Of a stretch of 46,277 nucleotides of DNA, positions 3,187-46,277 are shown piece after piece. Each line of letters opens with the position of its first letter. The first letter of the stretch is position 1. The stretch is from Planctomycetaceae bacterium (GTDB taxonomy: Bacteria > Planctomycetota > Planctomycetia > Pirellulales > Pirellulaceae): assembly GCA_002862205.1 (NCBI GenBank), contig PKCN01000200.1, forward strand, positions 1-46,277, given 5' to 3'. A program made the position numbers and the translations under genes. Below the pieces are notes generated by a model. The model was not told where the DNA came from. It did no database searches and worked only from the letters and a program-made list of their open reading frames with translations.

Positions 3187-4110
3187 ATGTTTCCCAAGTC
3201 CCCTCGCTGCCAGGTCGTTCCACTGCCGCAAAAACAGGTTGCGTTTGTGGTTGACGGTCAAGAAAGATTGCGATGGCATGCTGCCGCTGATGCTCCCAGG
3301 CCATTTTTCTTTCCGTTAATCGGGCCATCCGGATTACCACTGACGCGGATGGGACATCCTGGGGCACCCAACCACGATCATCATCGTTCCATCTGGTTTG
3401 CTCACTATAAAGTTCTTGGAATCGATTTTTGGTCTGATACTTCTGATGCTGTCATCCGTCAGGAACATTGGCTCGCCTATCAGAATGGACAAGAAGAAGC
3501 GAGTATGGCGGTGGAACTCGGTTGGTATGACGGCCACAATCCTGCTCCATTGCTCAAGCAGAAATTGGTGACTGCCATTGCCCCTGCAGAAGATGATGGG
3601 GTTTTGATCGAAATCCAGACGACCTTGAATTCCGTGGCAGAGTCACTTGAATTGGAACAGACCAACTTTGGTTTGCTCGCAGTGCGCGTGGCCGGAGCCA
3701 TTTCGGCTGTTTTTGGTGACGGTGTTCTGACAGGTAGTGATGGAACACAAACAGAAAAACAACTGTTCGGGAAAGCTTCCGCATGGATCGATTACAGTGG
3801 GTCAGTTGATCAGGGAATCACAGAAGGGCTGACCTACTTTGATCATGCACAAAACGCAAGCTACCCGAGCAAATGGCATGTCCGCGATGATGGTTGGATC
3901 GGCGCATCTGTTTGCCGCGATGGACCGGTAATGTTGTATCGTGATCAGCCGACAACTTGGCGATATCTGATTCATGCACATGCAGGTCCTGCCAATGTCG
4001 AGGCATCTCACCGTTTGGCACAAGCATTTGATCGTCGCCCGCCCTTTGCACTGAAACCTGCCAAGAAACCCCACCACGAATATCTGATAGAGAGAGAGTC
4101 CCATGAGTGA
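3187..4110 (+). CDS. DUF6807 (PmoA-like) family protein
   Basis: The protein (about 307 aa from this start) matches the planctomycete family annotated as DUF6807 or 'PmoA-like': a conserved FPLIGPSGLPLTRMGHPG segment is followed by a histidine-rich PNHDHHRSIWFAH motif, a WSDT segment and several aromatic beta strands. The biochemical role is not established; members commonly sit beside Gfo/Idh/MocA oxidoreductases, as here. No signal peptide is evident from this start. The frame is open back to 3049, but the extra residues are low complexity and overlap a small tandem repeat, so the internal ATG at 3187 is favoured without a clear ribosome binding site. It overlaps the next gene by 8 bp, which suggests translational coupling. 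Confidence 0.75.
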   Translation: MFPKSPRCQVVPLPQKQVAFVVDGQERLRWHAAADAPRPFFFPLIGPSGLPLTRMGHPGAPNHDHHRSIWFAHYKVLGIDFWSDTSDAVIRQEHWLAYQNGQEEASMAVELGWYDGHNPAPLLKQKLVTAIAPAEDDGVLIEIQTTLNSVAESLELEQTNFGLLAVRVAGAISAVFGDGVLTGSDGTQTEKQLFGKASAWIDYSGSVDQGITEGLTYFDHAQNASYPSKWHVRDDGWIGASVCRDGPVMLYRDQPTTWRYLIHAHAGPANVEASHRLAQAFDRRPPFALKPAKKPHHEYLIERESHE

Positions 4111-5467
4111 GTTGATCCCCAAGGCAGAATCACAATTGTCTTCAGTGGCCCAAAAACGCCGCGAGCAGCAGATGAATGACCGTCGGTTATTTCTGAAGTC
4201 CGGGGCTGCGTTGGCTGCAGCGGGAGCGATGACGTCCTTTGCTAGCGCAGAGGAAGCGGAGGATCAAGCGAAGAACTCACCAGGCGAACGAGTCGTCATG
4301 GGTATCATGGGTGTCAACGGTCGTGGCAGTGCCATCGCAAGAGGGATGATGGCAGCAGGAAATACCGAGGTTGCGTATGTTTGCGATGTTGACACTCAAG
4401 CTGCCAGTCGCGTCAGTCAGTTGGTTGGCGAAGTCCAGAAAAAAGATCCCAAGGTTGTCGGTGATTTCCGCCGTATCCTTGATGATACCGGTGTCGATGT
4501 ACTGGTTGTCGCGGCGCCCAATCATTGGCATGCACCAGCGACAATCCTAGGATGTTCCGCCGGCAAACATGTTTACGTTGAAAAGCCGTGTAGCCATACA
4601 CCCGAGGAAGGTGAAATGGCTGTCGCTGCAGCACGGAAAAATAAACGCATCGTCCAAATGGGGACGCAGCGTCGTTCATGGCCTGGGATAGTCGAGGCAA
4701 TTCAACGCATCCATGAAGGTGCCATCGGCGAGGTGCTTTACTCCCGCACCTGGTACAACAATCGTCGCCCGTCGATTGGGGTTGGTAAACCGACGGAAGT
4801 TCCTGATTGGCTCGATTGGCGTTTGTGGCAGGGGCCGGCTCCCGATCGACCCTATAAGGACAACGTTGTTCATTACAATTGGCATTGGCATTGGGATTGG
4901 GGTAACGGAGAGCTTGGCAACAATGGAGTGCACGGTATTGATGTTGCACGCTGGGGTCTGGAAGTGACTTATCCCGTTCGTGTGACGGCCGGTGGAGGCA
5001 AGTATCGTCACGATGATGATCAGGAAACACCCGACACGCTGATGGTGACGATGGATTTTCCCGAAGGAAAATCAATCACTTGGGAAGGGCTGAGCTGGTC
5101 TCCTCTGGGACCACATGATTCCGGATTCGGAATCAGTTTTCATGGTTCCGAAGGATCACTGGTACAACAGGGGACAGGTTATGTCATGTACGACATGAAG
5201 GGGAAAGAAATCGCCACAGGCAATGGTGCTGGTGGGGACAAAGATCACTTCGATGACTTTCTGGATGGGGTCCGTACGGGACGATTGACCAACGCGGATA
5301 TCGAAATCGCCCACCAAAGTACGTTGCTGTGCCATCTTGGCAATATTGCTTACCGCACAGGAAGTGTCGTCAACACTGATCCAGCGAATGGTCATATCAC
5401 AGGAAATCCGACAGCCCAAGCATTGTGGGGACGCGAGTATGCCCCGGGTTGGCAACCCAAGGTGTGA
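4103..5467 (+). CDS. Tat-exported Gfo/Idh/MocA family oxidoreductase
   Basis: This 454-residue protein is a member of the NAD(P)-dependent sugar dehydrogenase superfamily. A twin-arginine signal lies at residues 26-50 (DRRLFLKSG followed by an alanine-rich core and ASA cleavage site), so the folded enzyme is probably exported. The Rossmann nucleotide-binding motif is GVNGRGSAIARG (near 70-81) and the EKP motif with the usual catalytic lysine is at 160-162. A WHWHWDWGNGELGNNGVHG segment is typical of planctomycete secreted members. The substrate is unknown, but coupling with the upstream DUF6807 gene suggests a joint step in handling sugars or glycans. ATG 4172 (MNDRRLF) is an alternative start that keeps the Tat signal. 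Confidence 0.9.
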   Translation: MSELIPKAESQLSSVAQKRREQQMNDRRLFLKSGAALAAAGAMTSFASAEEAEDQAKNSPGERVVMGIMGVNGRGSAIARGMMAAGNTEVAYVCDVDTQAASRVSQLVGEVQKKDPKVVGDFRRILDDTGVDVLVVAAPNHWHAPATILGCSAGKHVYVEKPCSHTPEEGEMAVAAARKNKRIVQMGTQRRSWPGIVEAIQRIHEGAIGEVLYSRTWYNNRRPSIGVGKPTEVPDWLDWRLWQGPAPDRPYKDNVVHYNWHWHWDWGNGELGNNGVHGIDVARWGLEVTYPVRVTAGGGKYRHDDDQETPDTLMVTMDFPEGKSITWEGLSWSPLGPHDSGFGISFHGSEGSLVQQGTGYVMYDMKGKEIATGNGAGGDKDHFDDFLDGVRTGRLTNADIEIAHQSTLLCHLGNIAYRTGSVVNTDPANGHITGNPTAQALWGREYAPGWQPKV

Positions 5468-38558: not shown

Positions 38559-41500
38559 CTAAGACTGTCTATCTGTCGTGGTCTGTGGTGACTTGAACGG
38601 CTTTGTGTACCATGCCGAAAACGATCGAAGGGCTCGTGTAATATCATCGCCTGCCAAAACTGCACATGGCACGAGAAAAAGCGTGACGCCTGTGGCAAAC
38701 AGCACGCCGAATGCGAGCGAAACAGCCATCGGAATCAGGAACTTTGCTTGGATCGATGGATCGAAGATCAGCGGTGTCAAACCCACAAATGTCGTTACCG
38801 ACGTCAAGAAGATCGGACGAAACCGATTGGTTCCCGATTCGGCGACGGCCTCAAAAAGAGAACTTCCCGCTGCGCACCGGCGATTGATAAAGTCCACCAT
38901 CACCAGGGTATCGTTGACCGCGATCCCGGCCAGTGCCAGCATCCCGAATACTGACAGATAAGAGGGTGTCAGATCGAGCAGAATATGGCCGAAGATGGCA
39001 CCGATGATTGCAAATGGTACCGCCAGCAGAACGTAGAGTGGCTGGATCAGCGATCGTAACGCCACGGCCAACAACCCGTAGAGGGTCAGTCCAAGAAGGA
39101 TTGCGCCGACGATCGTCTGCTGTCGCGTCGTTTCGGCATCAGCGACGTAACCGTCATAGCGAAAGGTGAGTCCTGCTGAATTACATAGTTCCTCGAGGGT
39201 GGGGTCGAGATCTCTTGCAATCGCAACCATGTCAACGCTTTCATTTCTGACGTTCGCACCGATCCGCGCTACCTCCGCTTTGTCTTTTCGTTCGATGTTG
39301 CTGGGAGCTTTGACAACGTTAATGCTCGCGACAGTCTTGAGTGGTACTTCGTCGCCAGAGGGTGTGCGAATTTTCAGTCTGTCAAGCGTGTGAAGTGACC
39401 GCCGCCCCGATTCCGGCAATCTCACCATGACACGTACATCATCGGTTCCCCGTTGAAATCGCTGTGCTTCTTCACCGTAAAAAGCCTGCCGAACCTGGCT
39501 GGCCAACATCGATTGTGTTAGTCCGAGTTCTGCGGCACGGGCTTTCAGGCGAATTCGCAGTTCGTCTTGCCCCTCGTCTACGTCCGTCCATTGATCTTTC
39601 AGTCCAGGATAGGTTTCCAGCAACGACTTGACCTTTCTGGCAACCGCTCGCTTGGCGGGAGAATCGGGTCCTCGAAGTTCCAGATTGAATTCGTCATCGT
39701 CTGGCCCCCACTCACGAACCATCGCCGCTTCGGTACGTGTTCGAAACTCACGAGCCTCGGGGATTTCGCCAACGAGCTCACTCCAACGTGTTGCCAGGTC
39801 CGTGTTGGACGGCCCGGGTTCACTGCGCTGTTCTGGTGGTAAGACTTCGAAGGATGCATACGCCCGTGACCGGTCGTAGTCGCGACCGGGACGAGAGGCA
39901 CCCGCCAGCGTCACAATGTTGCCAACCATTGATTCACCGGTGACCGGATCAACGGCTTCTTTTTGGAGGACATGGAGGGCGTCGGTGATGCGTTGAACGT
40001 ACCGCTGAGTGACTTCCATTGGCGTGTTGCTGGGCAGACTGAGCATCGCGCTGATGCGAGTGGTGTCGACAGTTGGGTAGGGCACAAATTTCATTCGCCC
40101 GCTTACACAGTAACCCGCCATTACCAACGCGAGCGCGATGAAGCTTGCGATCACTGCCCAGCGACCTGTGATGGCGAATCGCAGGGCGGGTGCGTAAACT
40201 CGTTCAATGAAGCGTTGAAGTAACCTGGCAACGCCTCCCTGGAACCGCGAAAACCAACCGGTCGGCGGCTTGTATCGCAAGTGTTTCAAGTGTGCCGGCA
40301 AGATCAACTTGGACTCGATCAGCGAAAACAACAGGACCATGGTGACGATCGGTGGCACCTGCCGCGCATAGTCTCCCCAGTTACCATCGAAAAACATCAT
40401 TGGGACAAATGCGACGACTGTCGTCAATGCTCCGAATGTGACTGGCGTGGCAATCTCTTTAGTGCCTTGGATGGCAGCTTGCAGCGGGTCGATTCCGTCG
40501 CTGATTTTGCAGTAGATATTCTCCGCAGTCACGATGGCATCATCGACAACAATCCCGGTCACGATGATGAATCCAAACAGGCTCATCACGTTGGCCGTCA
40601 AGCCAAACCACGGCATGAAGATCGCAGCGCCGGCAAAGCTGACTGGAATTCCGATTACGATCCAAAAAGCAACTGCAGGCCGGACGAACAACCCCAAGAT
40701 CAATAGCACAAAGAGACCACCCATGGCCAAAGCCCAAGTCAATGCACTCAGCCGTTGACGGATCGCAATCGATTGATCGTCCCAGATCTCCAAGCGAATC
40801 CCTTCGGGAAAGATCGCCGGTGTTTCCGCAATATAATCGCGGACCGATTGTGCAATCTCAAGCGCGTTCTCATCGCTCACTCGCATGACTTCCAGCAAGA
40901 GTGCCGGACGCCCGTTGTAGTACAGTCGAGGTTGTTCCTCGCTGAATCCGTCGGTGACCTTCGCGACGTCACCGACTCGAACCTCCGCGCCTCCGACAGA
41001 ACGGAGCGGAATCTGTTCAAACTCCCGACTGGTAAATGCTTGACCGTCAGTGCGCACGATAAACGTGCCACTTTTGCTGTCGATTGATCCGGCGGGAAGG
41101 TCGAGCGAAAAGTTTCGAATTGCGTCGGCAAGTTCTTGAAAGCTGAGGTCATACGCCAACAGTTTTTCGACGTCCGTCTCGATGCTGATCTCAGAGTCGA
41201 GATCTCCTTGCAGCACGACTCGGCTGATGCCGGGTATCTCTAATAGGTCACGTTGGACCTTGTTCGCGACATCGCGAAGCTCATGCAGCGAAAGATCGCC
41301 GGTTACAGCGATTTCCAGGATTTCGTAGTAGTGAGCGGACTCGGGAATGTAGATTCGTGGGGGTTCCGTTTCGGCGGGAAAGGTCGTGATCCGATCGACA
41401 CGCCCTTTGATATCGTCAAGCAGGTCGCGTCGGTCTTTTCCACGAGCGGCCCGAACCCAAATCCAGGCACCCCCGGGAGATCCTTCGGCATTGATGGATT

Positions 41501-41729
41501 CGATGCCGTCAACGCCTTCCAATGCTTCTTCGATAGGGATCAGAATCGCACGCTCTATGTCTTTACCCGTCGCACCTCGATAGGCCATGCGAATACTGAT
41601 GCCGTCCCAACTCAGGGCCGGAGTGACCTCCAACGGAACTTGCGTCATGGCAACAAACCCGCCCGCGACCAGAATCAGGATCATCAAGAAATTTGCTGCG
41701 ATCCCGTTGCGTGTGAACCAACCGATCAT
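38559..41729 (-). CDS. RND-family efflux transporter, inner membrane permease
   Basis: The 1056-residue protein is a hydrophobe/amphiphile efflux pump subunit of the AcrB/MexB superfamily. It begins MIGWFTRNGIAANFLMILIL, with TM1, then a large periplasmic loop (GATGKDIERAILIPIEEAL), the TM2-6 block with GIVVDDAIVTAENIY, a second periplasmic loop and a second TM block with AGIAVNDTLVMVDFIN. The duplicated topology and the length are normal. Efflux is driven by the proton gradient. The substrate is unknown. It overlaps the adaptor gene by 4 bp (ATGA); no outer-membrane TolC-type gene is in the window. Confidence 0.93.
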   Translation of the reverse strand: MIGWFTRNGIAANFLMILILVAGGFVAMTQVPLEVTPALSWDGISIRMAYRGATGKDIERAILIPIEEALEGVDGIESINAEGSPGGAWIWVRAARGKDRRDLLDDIKGRVDRITTFPAETEPPRIYIPESAHYYEILEIAVTGDLSLHELRDVANKVQRDLLEIPGISRVVLQGDLDSEISIETDVEKLLAYDLSFQELADAIRNFSLDLPAGSIDSKSGTFIVRTDGQAFTSREFEQIPLRSVGGAEVRVGDVAKVTDGFSEEQPRLYYNGRPALLLEVMRVSDENALEIAQSVRDYIAETPAIFPEGIRLEIWDDQSIAIRQRLSALTWALAMGGLFVLLILGLFVRPAVAFWIVIGIPVSFAGAAIFMPWFGLTANVMSLFGFIIVTGIVVDDAIVTAENIYCKISDGIDPLQAAIQGTKEIATPVTFGALTTVVAFVPMMFFDGNWGDYARQVPPIVTMVLLFSLIESKLILPAHLKHLRYKPPTGWFSRFQGGVARLLQRFIERVYAPALRFAITGRWAVIASFIALALVMAGYCVSGRMKFVPYPTVDTTRISAMLSLPSNTPMEVTQRYVQRITDALHVLQKEAVDPVTGESMVGNIVTLAGASRPGRDYDRSRAYASFEVLPPEQRSEPGPSNTDLATRWSELVGEIPEAREFRTRTEAAMVREWGPDDDEFNLELRGPDSPAKRAVARKVKSLLETYPGLKDQWTDVDEGQDELRIRLKARAAELGLTQSMLASQVRQAFYGEEAQRFQRGTDDVRVMVRLPESGRRSLHTLDRLKIRTPSGDEVPLKTVASINVVKAPSNIERKDKAEVARIGANVRNESVDMVAIARDLDPTLEELCNSAGLTFRYDGYVADAETTRQQTIVGAILLGLTLYGLLAVALRSLIQPLYVLLAVPFAIIGAIFGHILLDLTPSYLSVFGMLALAGIAVNDTLVMVDFINRRCAAGSSLFEAVAESGTNRFRPIFLTSVTTFVGLTPLIFDPSIQAKFLIPMAVSLAFGVLFATGVTLFLVPCAVLAGDDITRALRSFSAWYTKPFKSPQTTTDRQS

Positions 41730-42946
41730 GGAGTCGGGCTCCCTGTCGCCGGTTGACCAGCCAAGGACTCCGTCTCGATTTCCGAGATGATCTCAACAAC
41801 GGCTCCTTCAGGAGCATAGACCAACATCGTTGTTGCCACGTAATCCCCGATTCTTATATTTGTATCCCCTACGATCACGTAATTTTCATCCGACCAAAGC
41901 GGATCGATTTTTTGACTGCGCAACTTTTTCGTTTCGGCATCGATTAAATGAACTTGATTCAGGGAACGGACCGCGCGTCTGGGGATGGTGATCACGTTTT
42001 CCAACTTTTCACCCCGAACCGTGGCACTGACAGGCTGGCCGATACGCAGCACCGGGCCATCGCGATGAAGAGCAAATGGGTCAGGAATTCGAGCGATTGC
42101 AAATAGCTCAAGCGAATTCGGATCAAGAGCTCCCTCGGTGCGAACGATTTGACCGCTCCACTCTGCCTCGTTGTCGGGATTGATCGAATCGCGGAGCGTG
42201 ACCTTCAATGGTCGATCACTCTCGCGCTCGGGAAGACTCAAGAAACGCAATTCTCGTGTCGCAACAGGTAGCCGCACTTCGGCATAATCGACCGCAAAGA
42301 CATCTCCCAGGGTTGTTCCGACCGTAATCAATTCACCCAGCCCAATGGCCTTGGTGACCACACGACCGGCGAAGGGTGCGACGACGTCGGTACGCTCCAG
42401 ATCTCGCTCAGCTTGATTCAAATTCGCCTTTGCGACCTCGACATCGTTCTCTGCCTGAAGAAGCACCGAACGAGTTGCTTCCAGCTCCGCGAGGGATGCA
42501 CCATCCTGGGCGGCAAGTTGCTCCATCCGTTCCTTGGCCGTTGTTGCCAATTCGAATGCGGCCCCACTACGACGAACTTCCTGCTCTGCAATTCGAAGCG
42601 CGGTTTTGTAATCCCGGTCGTCAATCTTCAGCAAAATATCGCCGGCCGAAAAGAAACGGCCAACCTCAAACTCAGGATTGATCGTGACGATACGCCCGGT
42701 GACCTCGGCTGACAGCGTCACCTGATTATGGGGGCTCACCAATCCATTGGTCTCAATATGTACCTGATAGCTGCCGACTTCCAAACGCTGGACACGGCTC
42801 CGGACCTGGGTTGGCTCAGGCGGCTCGACGACCTCCTCTTCCATGGGAATTGAAAACTGACGAAATCCATACCATCCACCGGCCAGAATGCAGGCAGGCA
42901 AAATGAGACGTACCAGTAACGCGGCAAACCTTTGTGTCATGTTCAT
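41726..42946 (-). CDS. RND periplasmic adaptor (membrane fusion protein, HlyD-like)
   Basis: The adaptor links the RND permease to an outer-membrane channel. It has an N-terminal anchor (RFAALLVRLILPACILAGGWYGF), a lipoyl-like half (VHIETNGLVSPHNQVTLSAEVTGRI), a coiled-coil hairpin around residues 130-190 (RMEQLAAQDGASLAELEATRSV) and the second lipoyl half VVAPFAGRVVTKAIGLGELI, followed by the beta-barrel domain. Length (about 406 aa) is normal. ATG 42946 is chosen; the frame also opens at GTG 42968 and at ATG 42940. It is the first gene of the operon with the RND permease. No regulator is adjacent. Confidence 0.9.
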   Translation of the reverse strand: MNMTQRFAALLVRLILPACILAGGWYGFRQFSIPMEEEVVEPPEPTQVRSRVQRLEVGSYQVHIETNGLVSPHNQVTLSAEVTGRIVTINPEFEVGRFFSAGDILLKIDDRDYKTALRIAEQEVRRSGAAFELATTAKERMEQLAAQDGASLAELEATRSVLLQAENDVEVAKANLNQAERDLERTDVVAPFAGRVVTKAIGLGELITVGTTLGDVFAVDYAEVRLPVATRELRFLSLPERESDRPLKVTLRDSINPDNEAEWSGQIVRTEGALDPNSLELFAIARIPDPFALHRDGPVLRIGQPVSATVRGEKLENVITIPRRAVRSLNQVHLIDAETKKLRSQKIDPLWSDENYVIVGDTNIRIGDYVATTMLVYAPEGAVVEIISEIETESLAGQPATGSPTP

Positions 42947-43059
42947 GGAGGCAAGAAGGCGGGGCACGTTTCGGTCAACGGCACCCGGTTTTAGGTGGAG
43001 AGCAAAAGAGAGTGGGATGCAGCGGTGGAGGCGACGATGCCTACCAAAGTAATGAGAGA

Positions 43060-43782
43060 CTACGGAAACTCATACGGGTCTCGCTCATCCTTGGCCGTTG
43101 GTTCCACGCGGTCTCGCAAAAGTGCATCGTTGTCGAGATAGCTTGTTCGCTCTCGAAAACGGCTCTTTGCTGCGGAAAACACCCGTATTGACGAACGTTC
43201 CGCGAGAAATTCACCCTGCTGGATAGCATAGCTGCTCGCCAACCGGATGTCACTTGTCAGTTGACCTCAGATGGCCTGAAAATCTGAGTCAAAAGGACAT
43301 CTCAGTGAGTGCTGCCAACAAGAATAAGGCCTAGGAAGCTCGATTCCCGGAGCGAAAAGGCATGGTTCAAAGATTGCCACAGATCGGTAGCGAGCAATCT
43401 CGGAAACCCCATCACTTGCGCTCCCAGCAAAGCCGCGGAGGCTGGATAATCCGAGGCAAATTTGAGCGTGGTTGGAGTCGCTGAAGAAGCATCGACCGAA
43501 CAGATTTTGGTCGGGACTTAAGTCACTTCGCTCTTGTCACCAACGCACCATTGCGTGCAGTTGCGGAGGTGACGCAGTAAACATTGCTTCGTGGTCGTTG
43601 CCCACGCGGGACTCAATTTCAACAAAAAAGAGTACCTCAGATGATGACAACCCTGGAACTTCACCGACCAAAGTATTCGCTGGAGCGTTTTGAAGCGTGT
43701 GTAAACCGCCGTTGAGAGTCAACTTGAGGTGCGTGGTCGGGAGACGACCAGACAAAGTACGCCCAAAGCAACCCTCTTCGAA
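43060..43782 (-). pseudogene. Stop-poor frame with two in-frame TGA codons, unknown
   Basis: On the minus strand a single frame runs from 43782 to a TAG at 43060-43062, about 240 codons, interrupted only by TGA at 43537-43539 and TGA at 43267-43269. Equal-base chance would give about 11 stops in this length. Residues read VGNDHEAMFTASPPQLHAMV, then stop, then SSLRGFAGSASDGVSEIARY, then stop, then ASSYAIQQGEFLAERSSIRV. I do not recognise a family. It could be a decayed gene or a dispersed repeat with coding-like composition. No ATG start precedes the first part; TTG 43755 is the first start-like codon. Confidence 0.35.
43705..43760 (-). repeat. Two-hairpin element, copy A
   Basis: Read on the minus strand, the 56 nt contain TGGTC-GTCTCCC-GACCA, then CGCACC and a 4-nt spacer, then GTTGA-CTC-TCAAC. 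The second copy at 45132-45187 keeps all four stem arms and has different loop and spacer bases, with no insertions or deletions between copies. Confidence 0.7.
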
Positions 43783-43840
43783 CTAGCTCTATTTCGGAAC
43801 TTTGACGCAACATCTTTGTTGACTGAGAGTTAAGGCGAGG

Positions 43841-44130
43841 ATGTTGCTTCCGGTGTCACGGAGACCGAATAGGATTCGAACTGAGACACGGGGCGTCAAA
43901 GTCGAAAGCCAAGTCACTGCGGCCCGCATGACGCACATCATGTGGCTGACCAACTTGGCCCCAGAGATTCAAGAGGCCATTCTGTTCCTGCCTCGCGTCG
44001 AGTCCGGACCGGACCGGACACGGTCAAGGAGATCGATGTGCGGCGGATCACTCGGTTGATGGATTGGGGTGTGCAGCGGAGGATCTGGAAACAGATTTCG
44101 GCCAAGCTTTATTGCAGCAGGTCACGGTAA
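43841..44130 (+). pseudogene. Frameshifted C-terminal fragment of an HTH/recombinase-type protein
   Basis: The first frame reads VTAARMTHIMWLTNLAPEIQ followed by EAILFLPRVESGPD, then loses sense. A second frame continues TVKEIDVRRITRLMDWGVQR and RIWKQI to a TAA at about 44130. The change of frame falls in three tandem CCGGA units (44004-44018); removing one unit joins the two parts exactly. 'ARMTQIMNL..LAPDIQE..LFL' is a pattern I associate with helix-turn-helix segments in or near site-specific recombinases, so this looks like a relic of a mobile element. The N-terminal part is missing or unrecognisable. Confidence 0.6.
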
Positions 44131-44235
44131 CTGGCACAGATGAGAGGCTACAGTAAGTGAGTTCGTCTGGTCGACCTGAAGCATTCAGCCAATGAGCGTG
44201 GATCGTTGGTTCGATCTACAACATTCCTTCTTTGC

Positions 44236-44730
44236 TCAATCGCCTTCGCTTTTCTCTTGAGCAAGTTTTTCCCATTTCAGAACATTGTTTTTTCGGCTAG
44301 ATGGATCCTTCAGAGCTCTCAAAAACTGTCTTGGATATTGATGACCAATGGTGTTACCGTCCTCATCGTATATGAACGCGAGGTCGTGGCCAGTCATTAC
44401 TTCCTTTGCAGAATCGTACAGAGCCTGGCATATCAAAATTGGTTCGTAAGCGAGTGCCATAAACGGGTAAAATCCCGTCCCCGGATTAGTGTTGAATTTT
44501 TGATGCACATGGTAGTTCTCGACTTCGAAGTGATGGACCTCCTGAGTCGATGGATCAACCAGGTCAATCTGCCCGATGTTTTCGGAGGGCCCGAATTGCT
44601 TTTCCACTGCAACACGTGAATCCAGATTATCCAGAGTGGTACCGCTTTCACGAATCAGAACACTGCACCCAGAACAGCACGTAAGCGTGAGGACCACCGA
44701 GAAAAGCAGAGTTGATGGAGTGGAAATCAT
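44236..44730 (-). CDS. Putative lipoprotein of unknown function
   Basis: From ATG 44730 the protein has 164 residues with a lipoprotein-like signal (STLLFSVVLTLTCCSGC). The mature part starts SVLIRESGTTLDNLD and shows mixed alpha/beta sequence (VHHFEVENYHVHQKFNTNPG, LAFIYDEDGNTIG) with no family I recognise. The open frame extends to 44931 but that part looks non-coding. It lies between the two copies of the hairpin element in the decayed patch, so it may belong to the accessory region. Confidence 0.6.
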   Translation of the reverse strand: MISTPSTLLFSVVLTLTCCSGCSVLIRESGTTLDNLDSRVAVEKQFGPSENIGQIDLVDPSTQEVHHFEVENYHVHQKFNTNPGTGFYPFMALAYEPILICQALYDSAKEVMTGHDLAFIYDEDGNTIGHQYPRQFLRALKDPSSRKNNVLKWEKLAQEKSEGD

Positions 44731-45184
44731 CCTAAGCAGCTCACGGGTTAAGATGTTCGGTTTGGCAAGTGGCACGCTAGCACACCGAATACTGAGATGA
44801 GCCCCTTTGATCATCAATTCAATTCTGCGGTGTGGGTTGCACTCACATTCGATGTATCCACAGTCTTCAGAGCGTGTAAACAAATTTTCGCTTCTGGGGC
44901 AATATCTGATCTCGAATCTTACCCGCACCACCGAAAAGCGACATCGCTAACTTATGCGGTCCAAAATATGAGAGAGTCAGAGAGCAGAGCCAACGGAGTT
45001 CGCAAACGGACGTGGTTGGATAGATGAGCGGGAGCTATCGCAGGTACAGCAGAGAGTCTTACTCAAGCAGTCATCGACGGAAGTCATTACCCGAAATCAC
45101 GTTATAACGCGAATTTCAAGTGAGCTTTGCGACCGCTGTTGAGAGTCAACAGGTGGTGCGTGGTCAAGCAATGACCAGACAAAG
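44731..45184. other. Region between putative lipoprotein and tRNA, no gene seen
   Basis: No supported gene. It includes the second hairpin-element copy (45132-45187) and otherwise nothing I can name. Confidence 0.45.
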
Positions 45185-45187
45185 TAC
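45132..45187 (-). repeat. Two-hairpin element, copy B, adjoining tRNA-Arg
   Basis: Read on the minus strand it contains TGGTC-ATTGCTT-GACCA and TGTTGA-CTC-TCAACA. The element begins at the last nucleotides of the tRNA and extends downstream of it. Compared with copy A, nine of about 56 positions differ, nearly all in the first loop and the spacer. Confidence 0.7.
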
Positions 45188-45258
45188 CCCCGGCGGGATT
45201 CGAACCTGCGACCTGCGCGTTAGGAATGCGCTGCTCTATCCAGCTGAGCTACGAGGGC
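45185..45258 (-). tRNA. tRNA-Arg (anticodon CCT)
   Basis: The 74-nt cloverleaf reads GCCCTCG acceptor, GCTC-AGCTGGATA-GAGC D arm, anticodon loop TTCCTAA with CCT at 34-36, variable AGGTC, T arm with TTCGAAT loop, then CGGGGGT and A73. CCA is not encoded. Two positions are A-C mismatches (31-39 and 51-63) and the terminal pair is G-T, so folding is slightly weaker than usual. Confidence 0.9.
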
Positions 45259-45708
45259 GTTGCGCGATTAGCCTATCATGCCTCCCCGCTCTATGACAAC
45301 GAGACAGGAATACCAGATTGTGACGACAGCCCGATGTTTTGCGCAAGAATCAGCTGGGGCCCATGGTTTGGCATTGTTGGCGGCAGGCGTTTTGGGCCCT
45401 TGGTGAAGCTGAAACAGTTTTGAGCGGTCGTTGATCGGCACAGTCGCCGAATCTTACCTCTGTTCCGTCGACAGACTAGAGTGGGGCTGGGGCTCAGCTC
45501 CAGGCAAAGTTGTCCGCGCAAACTTGAGGGCTGGTGAGTCTGTGGTCTTGATCTCCAGGCTCAGCCAAATCTCCAGGCTCAGCCAAATCTCCAGGCTCAG
45601 CCAAGGGTTGGTGGAGCGAACCTCCATCCTGACATGATTTTGAATCACGCCTTAAGATGCTCAAAACCGGTGAATTAACGCGATCAATATTTAATAGCTG
45701 GCAACCAC
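45259..45708. other. Intergenic region with 18-bp triplication
   Basis: No supported gene. It holds the upstream sequence of the tRNA and three perfect 18-bp repeats (45551-45604). I see no THI-box (TPP riboswitch) signature before the thiamine gene. Confidence 0.5.
45551..45604. repeat. 18-bp tandem repeat, 3 perfect copies
   Basis: The unit ATCTCCAGGCTCAGCCAA is repeated at 45551, 45569 and 45587 without mismatch, about 105 bp before the ThiE-type gene. There are no spacers between units, so it is not a CRISPR array. Confidence 0.95.
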
Positions 45709-46277
45709 ATGTCACAGGCCATGAATGGAATGAATGAAGATACCCGTAATTCCGTCTACCGCATTCTGGACGCGTCGGCGAATCGCGCTGGTGAGGGGCT
45801 TCGTACGATGGAGGAGATCGCCCGATTTGTTTTAGATGATTCCGCATTGACAGCCGAATTCAAGAGCCAGCGGCATGGTCTCGCAGGTGCCTTGAAATCG
45901 ATCTCGCGTGTTTCTCTGTTGAGAGCTCGTAATACCGGCGAGGATGTGGGCACCGGAATTACCGGAACAGGAGAATACCTGCGGGCCAATCTGGCGGATG
46001 TCGTCGCAGCAGCCGCTGCCCGAACACAGCAGTCATTCCGGGTTTTGGAAGAATATACAAAAACGATTGATCCTTCGATCTCTGCAGAGGTGGAACAGGT
46101 CCGTTACCGCTGCTACACAGCCAGTGCAGCCCTGGAGCTTCGTGTTGTGACTCGCAGCGAAAATTGCCGTTTGCATTCGTCCAGTCTGTATGTCTTGATG
46201 AGCTGTGGTAGCAGCCATGACAATTTTCAAGCGAAAGTTGAAGAGCTACTCGCTGGGGAGGCGGACGTTATCCAGTT
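45709..46277 (+). CDS. thiE: ThiD2-ThiE fusion, thiamine-phosphate synthase (partial)
   Basis: The gene runs off the window end. The N-terminal domain matches ThiD2 (PF17792), found fused to ThiE in planctomycetes and other bacteria: VYRILDASANRAGEGLRTME, then EIARFVLDDSALTAEFKSQR, LRARNTGEDVGTGITG, and SFRVLEEYTK. At residues near 160 the ThiE barrel begins (SSLYVLMSCGSSHDNFQAKV). ThiE joins the pyrimidine and thiazole moieties to give thiamine phosphate; the extra domain is proposed to handle HMP phosphorylation. The first in-frame ATG, 45709, is used, with ATGs at 45721 and 45730 also possible. Confidence 0.85.
   Translation, partial: MSQAMNGMNEDTRNSVYRILDASANRAGEGLRTMEEIARFVLDDSALTAEFKSQRHGLAGALKSISRVSLLRARNTGEDVGTGITGTGEYLRANLADVVAAAAARTQQSFRVLEEYTKTIDPSISAEVEQVRYRCYTASAALELRVVTRSENCRLHSSSLYVLMSCGSSHDNFQAKVEELLAGEADVIQ

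Follow-up and report, generated by a model that had tools for sequence, protein, structure and literature searches.

Why should the same 56-nt sequence occur twice near one end of a planctomycete contig, once directly behind a tRNA-Arg gene and once with no tRNA beside it? We consider it very probable that this element is the core of an attachment (att) site lying between small cassettes, which are stacked behind the tRNA-Arg(CCT) and tRNA-Arg(TCT) genes of Rubripirellula and a few other Pirellulaceae and would be moved by a tyrosine recombinase acting in trans.

The element and its flanking modules

A sequence-only reading of the window (the whole stretch of 46,277 nt that was analysed) had described two ungapped copies with identical stem arms and differing loops, one of them starting at a tRNA end and the other without an intact tRNA, and this description was confirmed. 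Copy A (43705-43760) and copy B (45132-45187), both on the minus strand, are of equal length without gaps and agree at 47 of 56 positions, whereas none of 30 dinucleotide shuffles of positions 43000-46277 contained an ungapped 56-mer self-match better than 33. In each potential hairpin, the two copies have the same inner arms, and the loop reads GTCTCCC in A and ATTGCTT in B (minus strand). Copy B lies directly 3' of a tRNA-Arg(CCT) gene in the tRNA sense (45184-45258, minus strand; ARAGORN and Rfam RF00005), with a 4-nt overlap with the tRNA 3' end, and there is no tRNA at copy A. In the Rfam search the tRNA alone passed the cut-off, the remaining E-value matches lying below their gathering scores.

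A longer conserved module has its edge at copy A, because similarity on its side extends over 379 bp (79%) to a third, tRNA-less copy on contig C15 of the same genome. Copy B has 354 bp (83%), covering the tRNA, the element and about 220 bp behind the element, in common with a tRNA-flush copy on C15. This genome contains four copies, half of them in the window and half on C15 (a single-query search had given three); two of the four are flush with tRNA-Arg, the one on C15 behind tRNA-Arg(TCT).

An alignment of the window with its relatives revealed three modules, which we read in the tRNA sense as RE, element and LE. RE, of about 110 nt, lies upstream of most tRNA-less copies and has a mimic of the tRNA 3' end (GTTCGAAGAGGGTTGCTTTGGGCG) at its own 3' end; LE, of about 300 nt, lies downstream of most element copies. 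In the window, the tRNA-Arg(CCT) gene, the anchor of the array, is followed on the minus strand by copy B, the putative tRNA-side attachment site, and by LE, the conserved left cassette end (44867-45116; nhmmer E 2.3e-58, from a model built with this sequence). The cargo is a single small ORF of 231 aa, counted from its first GTG (44236-44931, minus strand), which has no Pfam match and probably has its true start downstream of LE. On the plus strand lies a coding-sequence remnant (about 43908-44082; ..ARMTHIMWLTNLAPEIQEAILFLPRVESGPD..) that other cassettes also have on the inner side of their RE, and RE itself, the conserved right cassette end ending in the mimic, occupies 43762-43892 on the minus strand (nhmmer E 3.8e-41, from a model likewise built with this sequence). 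Copy A, the putative distal attachment site, has no LE after it and so marks the end of the array, and the window contains one cassette of 1,427 bp (1.43 kb). Besides the acceptor mimic, both cassette ends hold tRNA T-arm-like stretches (GGTTCGAATC, on opposite strands), in LE near offset +200 and in RE at its far end.

Cassette arrays anchored at tRNA-Arg genes

The element recurs, as the sequence-only reading had required of a genuine one: model searches of this genome and its relatives gave 41 strong copies in the loci examined, a count from which four weak matches (E > 1e-10) are excluded and for which the models were built from many of the copies counted. Fourteen of them are flush behind tRNA-Arg, seven at CCT and seven at TCT, which places strong copies downstream of another tRNA as well; 23 lie behind RE and four behind neither, one of these four (L046 5654) having a 44-nt tRNA 3' fragment before it (L046 5644-5687). 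LE follows 33 of the 41 copies, and RE-element-LE junctions number 19. The eight copies without a full LE comprise three at a contig end, one that runs into masked bases (L054), one with a partial LE and three with none, namely copy A of the window, one C15 copy and the CCT copy of genome G008. The same RE/element/LE pattern is visible by eye in the alignment.

All nine loci with at least two strong copies show a single orientation, with a spacing of 1.4-9.5 kb, and their layout is tRNA-ELEMENT-LE-cargo-RE-ELEMENT, repeated. Ten complete units bounded by elements, 1.4-9.5 kb in length, were recovered, one of which (in L041) has no recognisable distal RE. RE or LE modules also occur on their own, with no element that could be recognised beside them (L043 9422-9546; L004 4735-4859 and 11435-11574; L057 17972-18086); they are probably decayed cassettes deeper in arrays.

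Is the element an ordinary part of the tRNA-Arg trailer? In a set of 14 tRNA-Arg loci from 10 element-free genomes of the genus, which does not take in every second tRNA-Arg, 12 trailers from nine genomes were readable, and the element was missing from all 12 (best profile E 0.32). The carriers G006 and G017 also have CCT trailers without the element. That of G017 resembles a diverged relic by eye, in that a strongly diverged element-like sequence (..GCAAGCCCCACAAGTTCGCTCTC..) stands behind the tRNA (L095), perhaps a second specificity or a relic. At tRNA-Arg(CCT) of G008, the element is present without LE and with the spacer GTTTCCC, which we count in support as an empty-site form. This spacer resembles that of copy A (GTCTCCC) and not that of copy B (ATTGCTT), as would be expected if the half from the old chromosome lay in A and that from the cassette in B.

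Organisation of the putative att site

Within the element, two arms, GGTC and GACC, enclose a 7-bp spacer, giving GGTC-ATTGCTT-GACC in copy B (45162-45176) and GGTC-GTCTCCC-GACC in copy A (43735-43749), both on the minus strand; over 30 copies the arms are conserved at 0.975 and 0.983 and the spacer at 0.805, so that these nearly invariant arms form a core-like inverted repeat. A second conserved stretch, GTTGACTCTCAAC, is conserved above its flanks in its middle. The hexamer ACTCTC occurs in a single orientation at offsets -71 and -59 (RE), 52 (element) and 141, 213 and 221 (LE), in 10, 16, 36, 18, 10 and 14 of 40 contexts, respectively. In the window, it is found on the minus strand in RE (43825-43830, offset -59), in copy A (43714-43719), in copy B (45141-45146), where it forms the centre of 'hairpin 1', and in LE (45052-45057, offset 141; 44972-44977, offset 221). 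Its reverse was seen in four of the 40 contexts and at none of the six offsets. ACTCTC was the commonest hexamer in all seven junctions tested, its top count being reached by 0 to 15 of 300 shuffles, although these junctions were hand-picked and are homologous and so do not represent independent tests.

The sites of lambda-type tyrosine integrases combine core inverted repeats with arm-type direct repeats. The GGTC-N7-GACC inverted core and the ACTCTC direct repeats match this attP/attB layout at the level of sequence, and we read the element as an att-site core and the ACTCTC repeats as resembling the arm sites of such an integrase.

Where might the crossover lie? The tRNA acceptor stems are kept, with GGGGG in most CCT copies and GGGCG in TCT copies and in RE, which places the crossover 3' of them. 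In the pairs L084/L050 and L039/L042, near-identical left flanks begin to diverge just before GGTC; in the pair L040/L056, divergence starts some bases earlier, and copies from G016 and G080 with alike right sides differ, as judged by eye, left of the second base of the spacer. A column-wise association of element variants with the left and right flanks gave no breakpoint signal. Because this statistical test yielded no breakpoint and the placement rests on few pairs, these comparisons hint faintly at a crossover inside or just left of the core. Were the spacer the overlap, two partners in a single tyrosine-recombinase reaction would not usually differ in it as A and B do.

Cargo and sharing of cassette DNA

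What do the cassettes carry? The arrays include genes for a ParE toxin, an FGE-sulfatase, DUF1552/DUF1592-type proteins, a kinase, a sigma factor, a redoxin, leucine-rich repeats, a nucleotidyltransferase and a reverse transcriptase, and the 231-aa ORF of the window has a homologue in the array of G017 (56% over 225 aa). The reverse transcriptase and the adjacent FGE-like variable protein probably constitute a diversity-generating retroelement (DGR). This probable DGR stands behind LE and is common to two genera (L038 14215-15996; L158 10196-12100).

Cassette DNA is shared between loci and between genera. The LE-led DGR segment of G005 matches that of the complete genome G080, of another genus, at 91.2% over 2,740 bp; in G005 it follows an RE-element-LE junction within the CCT array, and in G080 it follows tRNA-Arg(TCT)-element-LE. 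The TCT flanks of the two genomes align over 64 bp only. Its right end is closed by neither RE nor the element in either genome. Likewise, the CCT locus of G005 and the C398 array of G008 have one LE-to-RE unit in common (87.1% over 3,107 bp). The CCT flanks of these genomes match at 84.3% over 5,362 bp; judging from its tRNA fragment, the C398 array would belong to the TCT locus. Finally, G010 and G006 have 1,622 bp in common at 99.3%, and the CCT stretches compared show no flank similarity beyond the tRNA, although most of the genomes, these two included, are metagenome-assembled, binning errors can mimic transfer, and the contamination of G010 is 8%.

Candidate recombinases

Which enzyme might act on these sites? 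The PF00589 proteins of the 10 element-bearing genomes offered no cognate recombinase that co-occurs with the element, and the contigs of the 10 complete units have no match to PF00589 or PF00239. The only PF00589 proteins found in all 10 genomes are XerC/XerD-like (by score and length; L059 and L067 were read), and G006 has two Xer-like proteins and no other. IntI-type integrases, at most 97% identical between genomes, were recognised in four of the 10, drafts being among these genomes, namely G000, G010, G016 and G017 (L058 498-1907 in G000; L062 5994-7415; L063 1698-3125; L064 3694-5064); G080, G119 and element-free genomes likewise have matches whose size is IntI-like. Clustering, which covered 33 of the PF00589 matches, those in fetched loci, gave further families common to two to five element-bearing genomes each and none common to all (G000/G013/G016/G025; G000/G007/G016/G017/G025; G005/G008/G013; G005/G008). 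A serine integrase was rejected as a candidate, PF00239 matches being absent from six of the 10 element-bearing genomes (draft genomes, G000 included). As to a dependence on XerCD and dif, a gammaproteobacterial dif pattern gave nothing above control in three genomes, and this pattern may not be that of the host.

Two integrases deserve separate mention. The family found in G005 and G008 (L065 28-1734; L066 5591-6535) was sought with L065 in 22 genomes of the genus and gave matches in 15, many of them weak or in the C-terminal end only, including the element-free G001, G004, G009, G020 and G021. Because its C-terminal end reads to us like a translated tRNA of another type, we take the L065 integrase to belong to another island; the short C-terminal matches in several genomes are perhaps att scars of that island. 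In addition, a 392-aa tyrosine integrase adjoins tRNA-Arg(TCT) in G013, a related, interrupted one stands at the same tRNA in G008, and a piece is present in G005 (L050 6662-7840; L122 about 3820-4900; start of L164). In G008, the array appears displaced behind the 44-nt tRNA 3' fragment of L046, which suggests a crossover in the anticodon region, at a site other than that of the element; in G013, no element lies behind tRNA-Arg(TCT). We read this integrase, too, as part of a different island, with the reservation that it may be the autonomous member of the system, since the G013 stretch ends in RE-element.

A model of cassette gain and its alternatives

How might such arrays have arisen? We picture the cassette as LE (about 300 bp), cargo and RE (about 110 bp) with the element at either end, and complete units in which no recombinase gene was detected. 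The enzyme, a tyrosine recombinase acting in trans, would recognise the core by its inverted GGTC and GACC arms and would also bind the ACTCTC arm motifs of all three modules, RE, element and LE. It would then recombine the att site of a cassette circle with the element that adjoins the tRNA 3' end, the crossover falling within the core or slightly to its left. A cut 3' of the acceptor stem would leave the tRNA intact, and the newest cassette would land next to the tRNA; run backwards between two elements, the reaction would cut a cassette out. Copy B of the window would thus be attL-like and copy A attR-like. We favour this model because of the flush position at tRNA-Arg, the single orientation, the element-free trailers, the empty-site form of G008, the cassette DNA found out of place and the ACTCTC repeats; against it we count the cognate recombinase that was not found among the proteins searched, the differing spacers of A and B and the unclosed right end of the DGR segment. 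The sequence-only reading had offered a processing or termination element, an attachment site or a mobile structured repeat, and it is the second option that the anatomy, the recurrence and the position at tRNA-Arg strongly support.

That reading had also held that conserved stems with free loops indicate a selected structure, and a structured RNA or tRNA-trailer element, acting as a processing signal or terminator and selected for its two hairpins, would accommodate two copies with equal stems, one of them in a tRNA-Arg trailer, as well as a terminator-like match just upstream of copy A. The 30 homologous copies speak against it, since they show no covariation: when compensatory stem changes were looked for, double-change cells in the proposed pairs numbered 2 of 330 (shuffle mean 2.2), and none of the four pairs predicted by RNAalifold carried a compensatory change. 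In hairpin 1, the CTC loop is invariant in all 30 copies although the inner 5-bp stem is fully paired in 21 and broken in nine; one 'loop' therefore outdoes its own stem in conservation, and the structural reading fails. Hairpin 2 has its 4-bp stem fully paired in 26 of the 30 copies, and this reflects invariance of the sequence. Processing or termination of the tRNA is made unlikely by the 12 readable trailers of element-free relatives, in which other sequence stands behind tRNA-Arg, and by the 23 of 41 strong copies that sit behind RE without a tRNA. Terminator-like matches are near chance (three, against a shuffle mean of 1.7), with none inside either hairpin, and a terminator or promoter role was rejected because the counts are close to chance. 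We give a selected RNA structure next to no credence.

Could homologous recombination alone account for the arrays, with the RE-element-LE scaffold left over from decayed islands, RecA swapping the cargo and no site-specific recombinase now at work? About 450 bp of repeats would provide the substrate, an integrase gene was undetected in the contigs of the complete units, several ends are decayed (orphan RE or LE), and the left/right association lacks a breakpoint signal. We nevertheless regard this as unlikely, since it would leave aside the flush position at two tRNA-Arg isoacceptors, the single orientation, the empty-site form of G008 and a short core in which near-invariant inverted arms are combined with arm-like direct repeats, and since similarity between copies from different contexts begins at the tRNA 3' end. 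Integrons, too, have anchored arrays of non-autonomous cassettes in one orientation, with toxin-antitoxin (TA) modules, and their attC sites are marked by R''/R' boxes (RYYYAAC..GTTRRRY). An unusual integron, in which the IntI-type integrase of some genomes moves attC-like cassette sites, would fit the tandem, equally oriented cassettes with variable cargo and TA modules and the IntI-type genes of G000, G010, G016 and G017. It is very improbable in view of an anchor that is a tRNA, an element without conserved folding, a 30-copy consensus in which the RYYYAAC..GTTRRRY arrangement was absent by eye, and the carriers G005, G006, G007, G008, G013 and G025, in which no IntI-type match was recognised.

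Relation to known systems

The favoured att-site model has its closest known parallels in CIME-type accretion and in additive islands at tRNA genes. CIMEs (cis-mobilizable elements) and tandem accretion of ICEs and IMEs involve att-bounded units without an integrase gene, stacked at a tRNA 3' end (PMC5704250). The present arrays resemble that description: the units are att-bounded and in tandem, 14 of the 41 copies form direct repeats flush at a tRNA 3' end, the copies of all nine multi-copy loci share one orientation, and PF00589 and PF00239 detected no integrase or recombinase in the contigs that contain the 10 complete units. They differ from it in their unit size (1.4-9.5 kb), conserved long ends, use of two isoacceptor tRNAs and presence in several genera, and here both mobilisation and an integrase-bearing partner in the array are putative. 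The Dehalococcoides ssrA islands also lie in multiple tandem copies downstream of one RNA gene and are marked by direct repeats, 16 islands having a serine recombinase module and 15 lacking an integration module (PMC3146451); their repeat consists of 20 bp of ssrA, whereas here it lies 3' of the tRNA, RE and LE ends are present, and a recombinase gene was undetected in complete units. In Methylophilaceae, likewise aquatic bacteria, additive flexible islands and tycheposons accumulate variable cargo at a tRNA with recurring repeats, the repeat being the last 20 nt of tRNA-Lys and a tyrosine recombinase being part of the tycheposon (PMC10872708). Our repeat, in contrast, comprises about 60 bp of non-tRNA sequence accompanied by long conserved ends, and the contigs with the 10 complete units yielded no tyrosine recombinase. 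Among the open-access papers that literature searches listed, none described the element in its title or the opening of its abstract.

Most likely, these arrays represent CIME-like accretion taken to an integron-like array, and we infer the mechanism that goes beyond their anatomy and the sharing of cassette DNA. A bolder and rather speculative possibility is a second, non-IntI cassette system, in which tRNA-Arg would serve as the docking site (the attI equivalent) for non-autonomous cassettes with a recombination sequence of about 450 bp and one recombinase encoded elsewhere, possibly the XerCD-type enzyme of the host, would insert and shuffle them. If this is true, planctomycetes trade adaptive modules, even a DGR, as plug-in cassettes. 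The repeat pair becomes a map of gene gain in this group, one in which the site and the cassette ends are defined and which clearly predicts circles, empty sites and a recombinase. Such arrays allow recent gene exchange between species and genera to be read directly, and they suggest that a DGR travels as cargo.

Distribution and surroundings

The carriers are Rubripirellula and a few other Pirellulaceae. A sequence-only model of 30 copies detected the element in 12 of the 22 genomes of the genus, in 11 of them strongly. When 199 genomes of the family were searched by blastn with the junction, 11 of them, from five genera, gave some match, that of G020 being confined to RE and that of G216 to 60 bp; the 199 are a sample of a larger family group, and at most three candidates were scored per genome. 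The element was absent from viral contigs (three patterns, 0 matches) and from plasmids and phages (0). A pattern scan of named genomes returned 24 stretches, 21 of them in Rhodopirellula/Rubripirellula metagenome-assembled genomes and one in a Planctomycetota genome of that kind, behind tRNA-Arg(TCT); those in Lentisphaeria, which has a weak profile match only, and in Bifidobacterium are taken for chance. In G014 (L124 1647-2943), tRNA-Arg(TCT), a diverged element, RE and a second diverged element about 1.2 kb apart were observed, an arrangement that is perhaps an older branch of the element family.

Two further features of the window adjoin the array. At 38559-42967, next to the array end, lies an RND-type efflux pair (ACR_tran, HlyD), and at 45550-45606, upstream of a thiE-like gene, a unit near TCTCCAGGCTCAGCCAAA is present in three direct copies.
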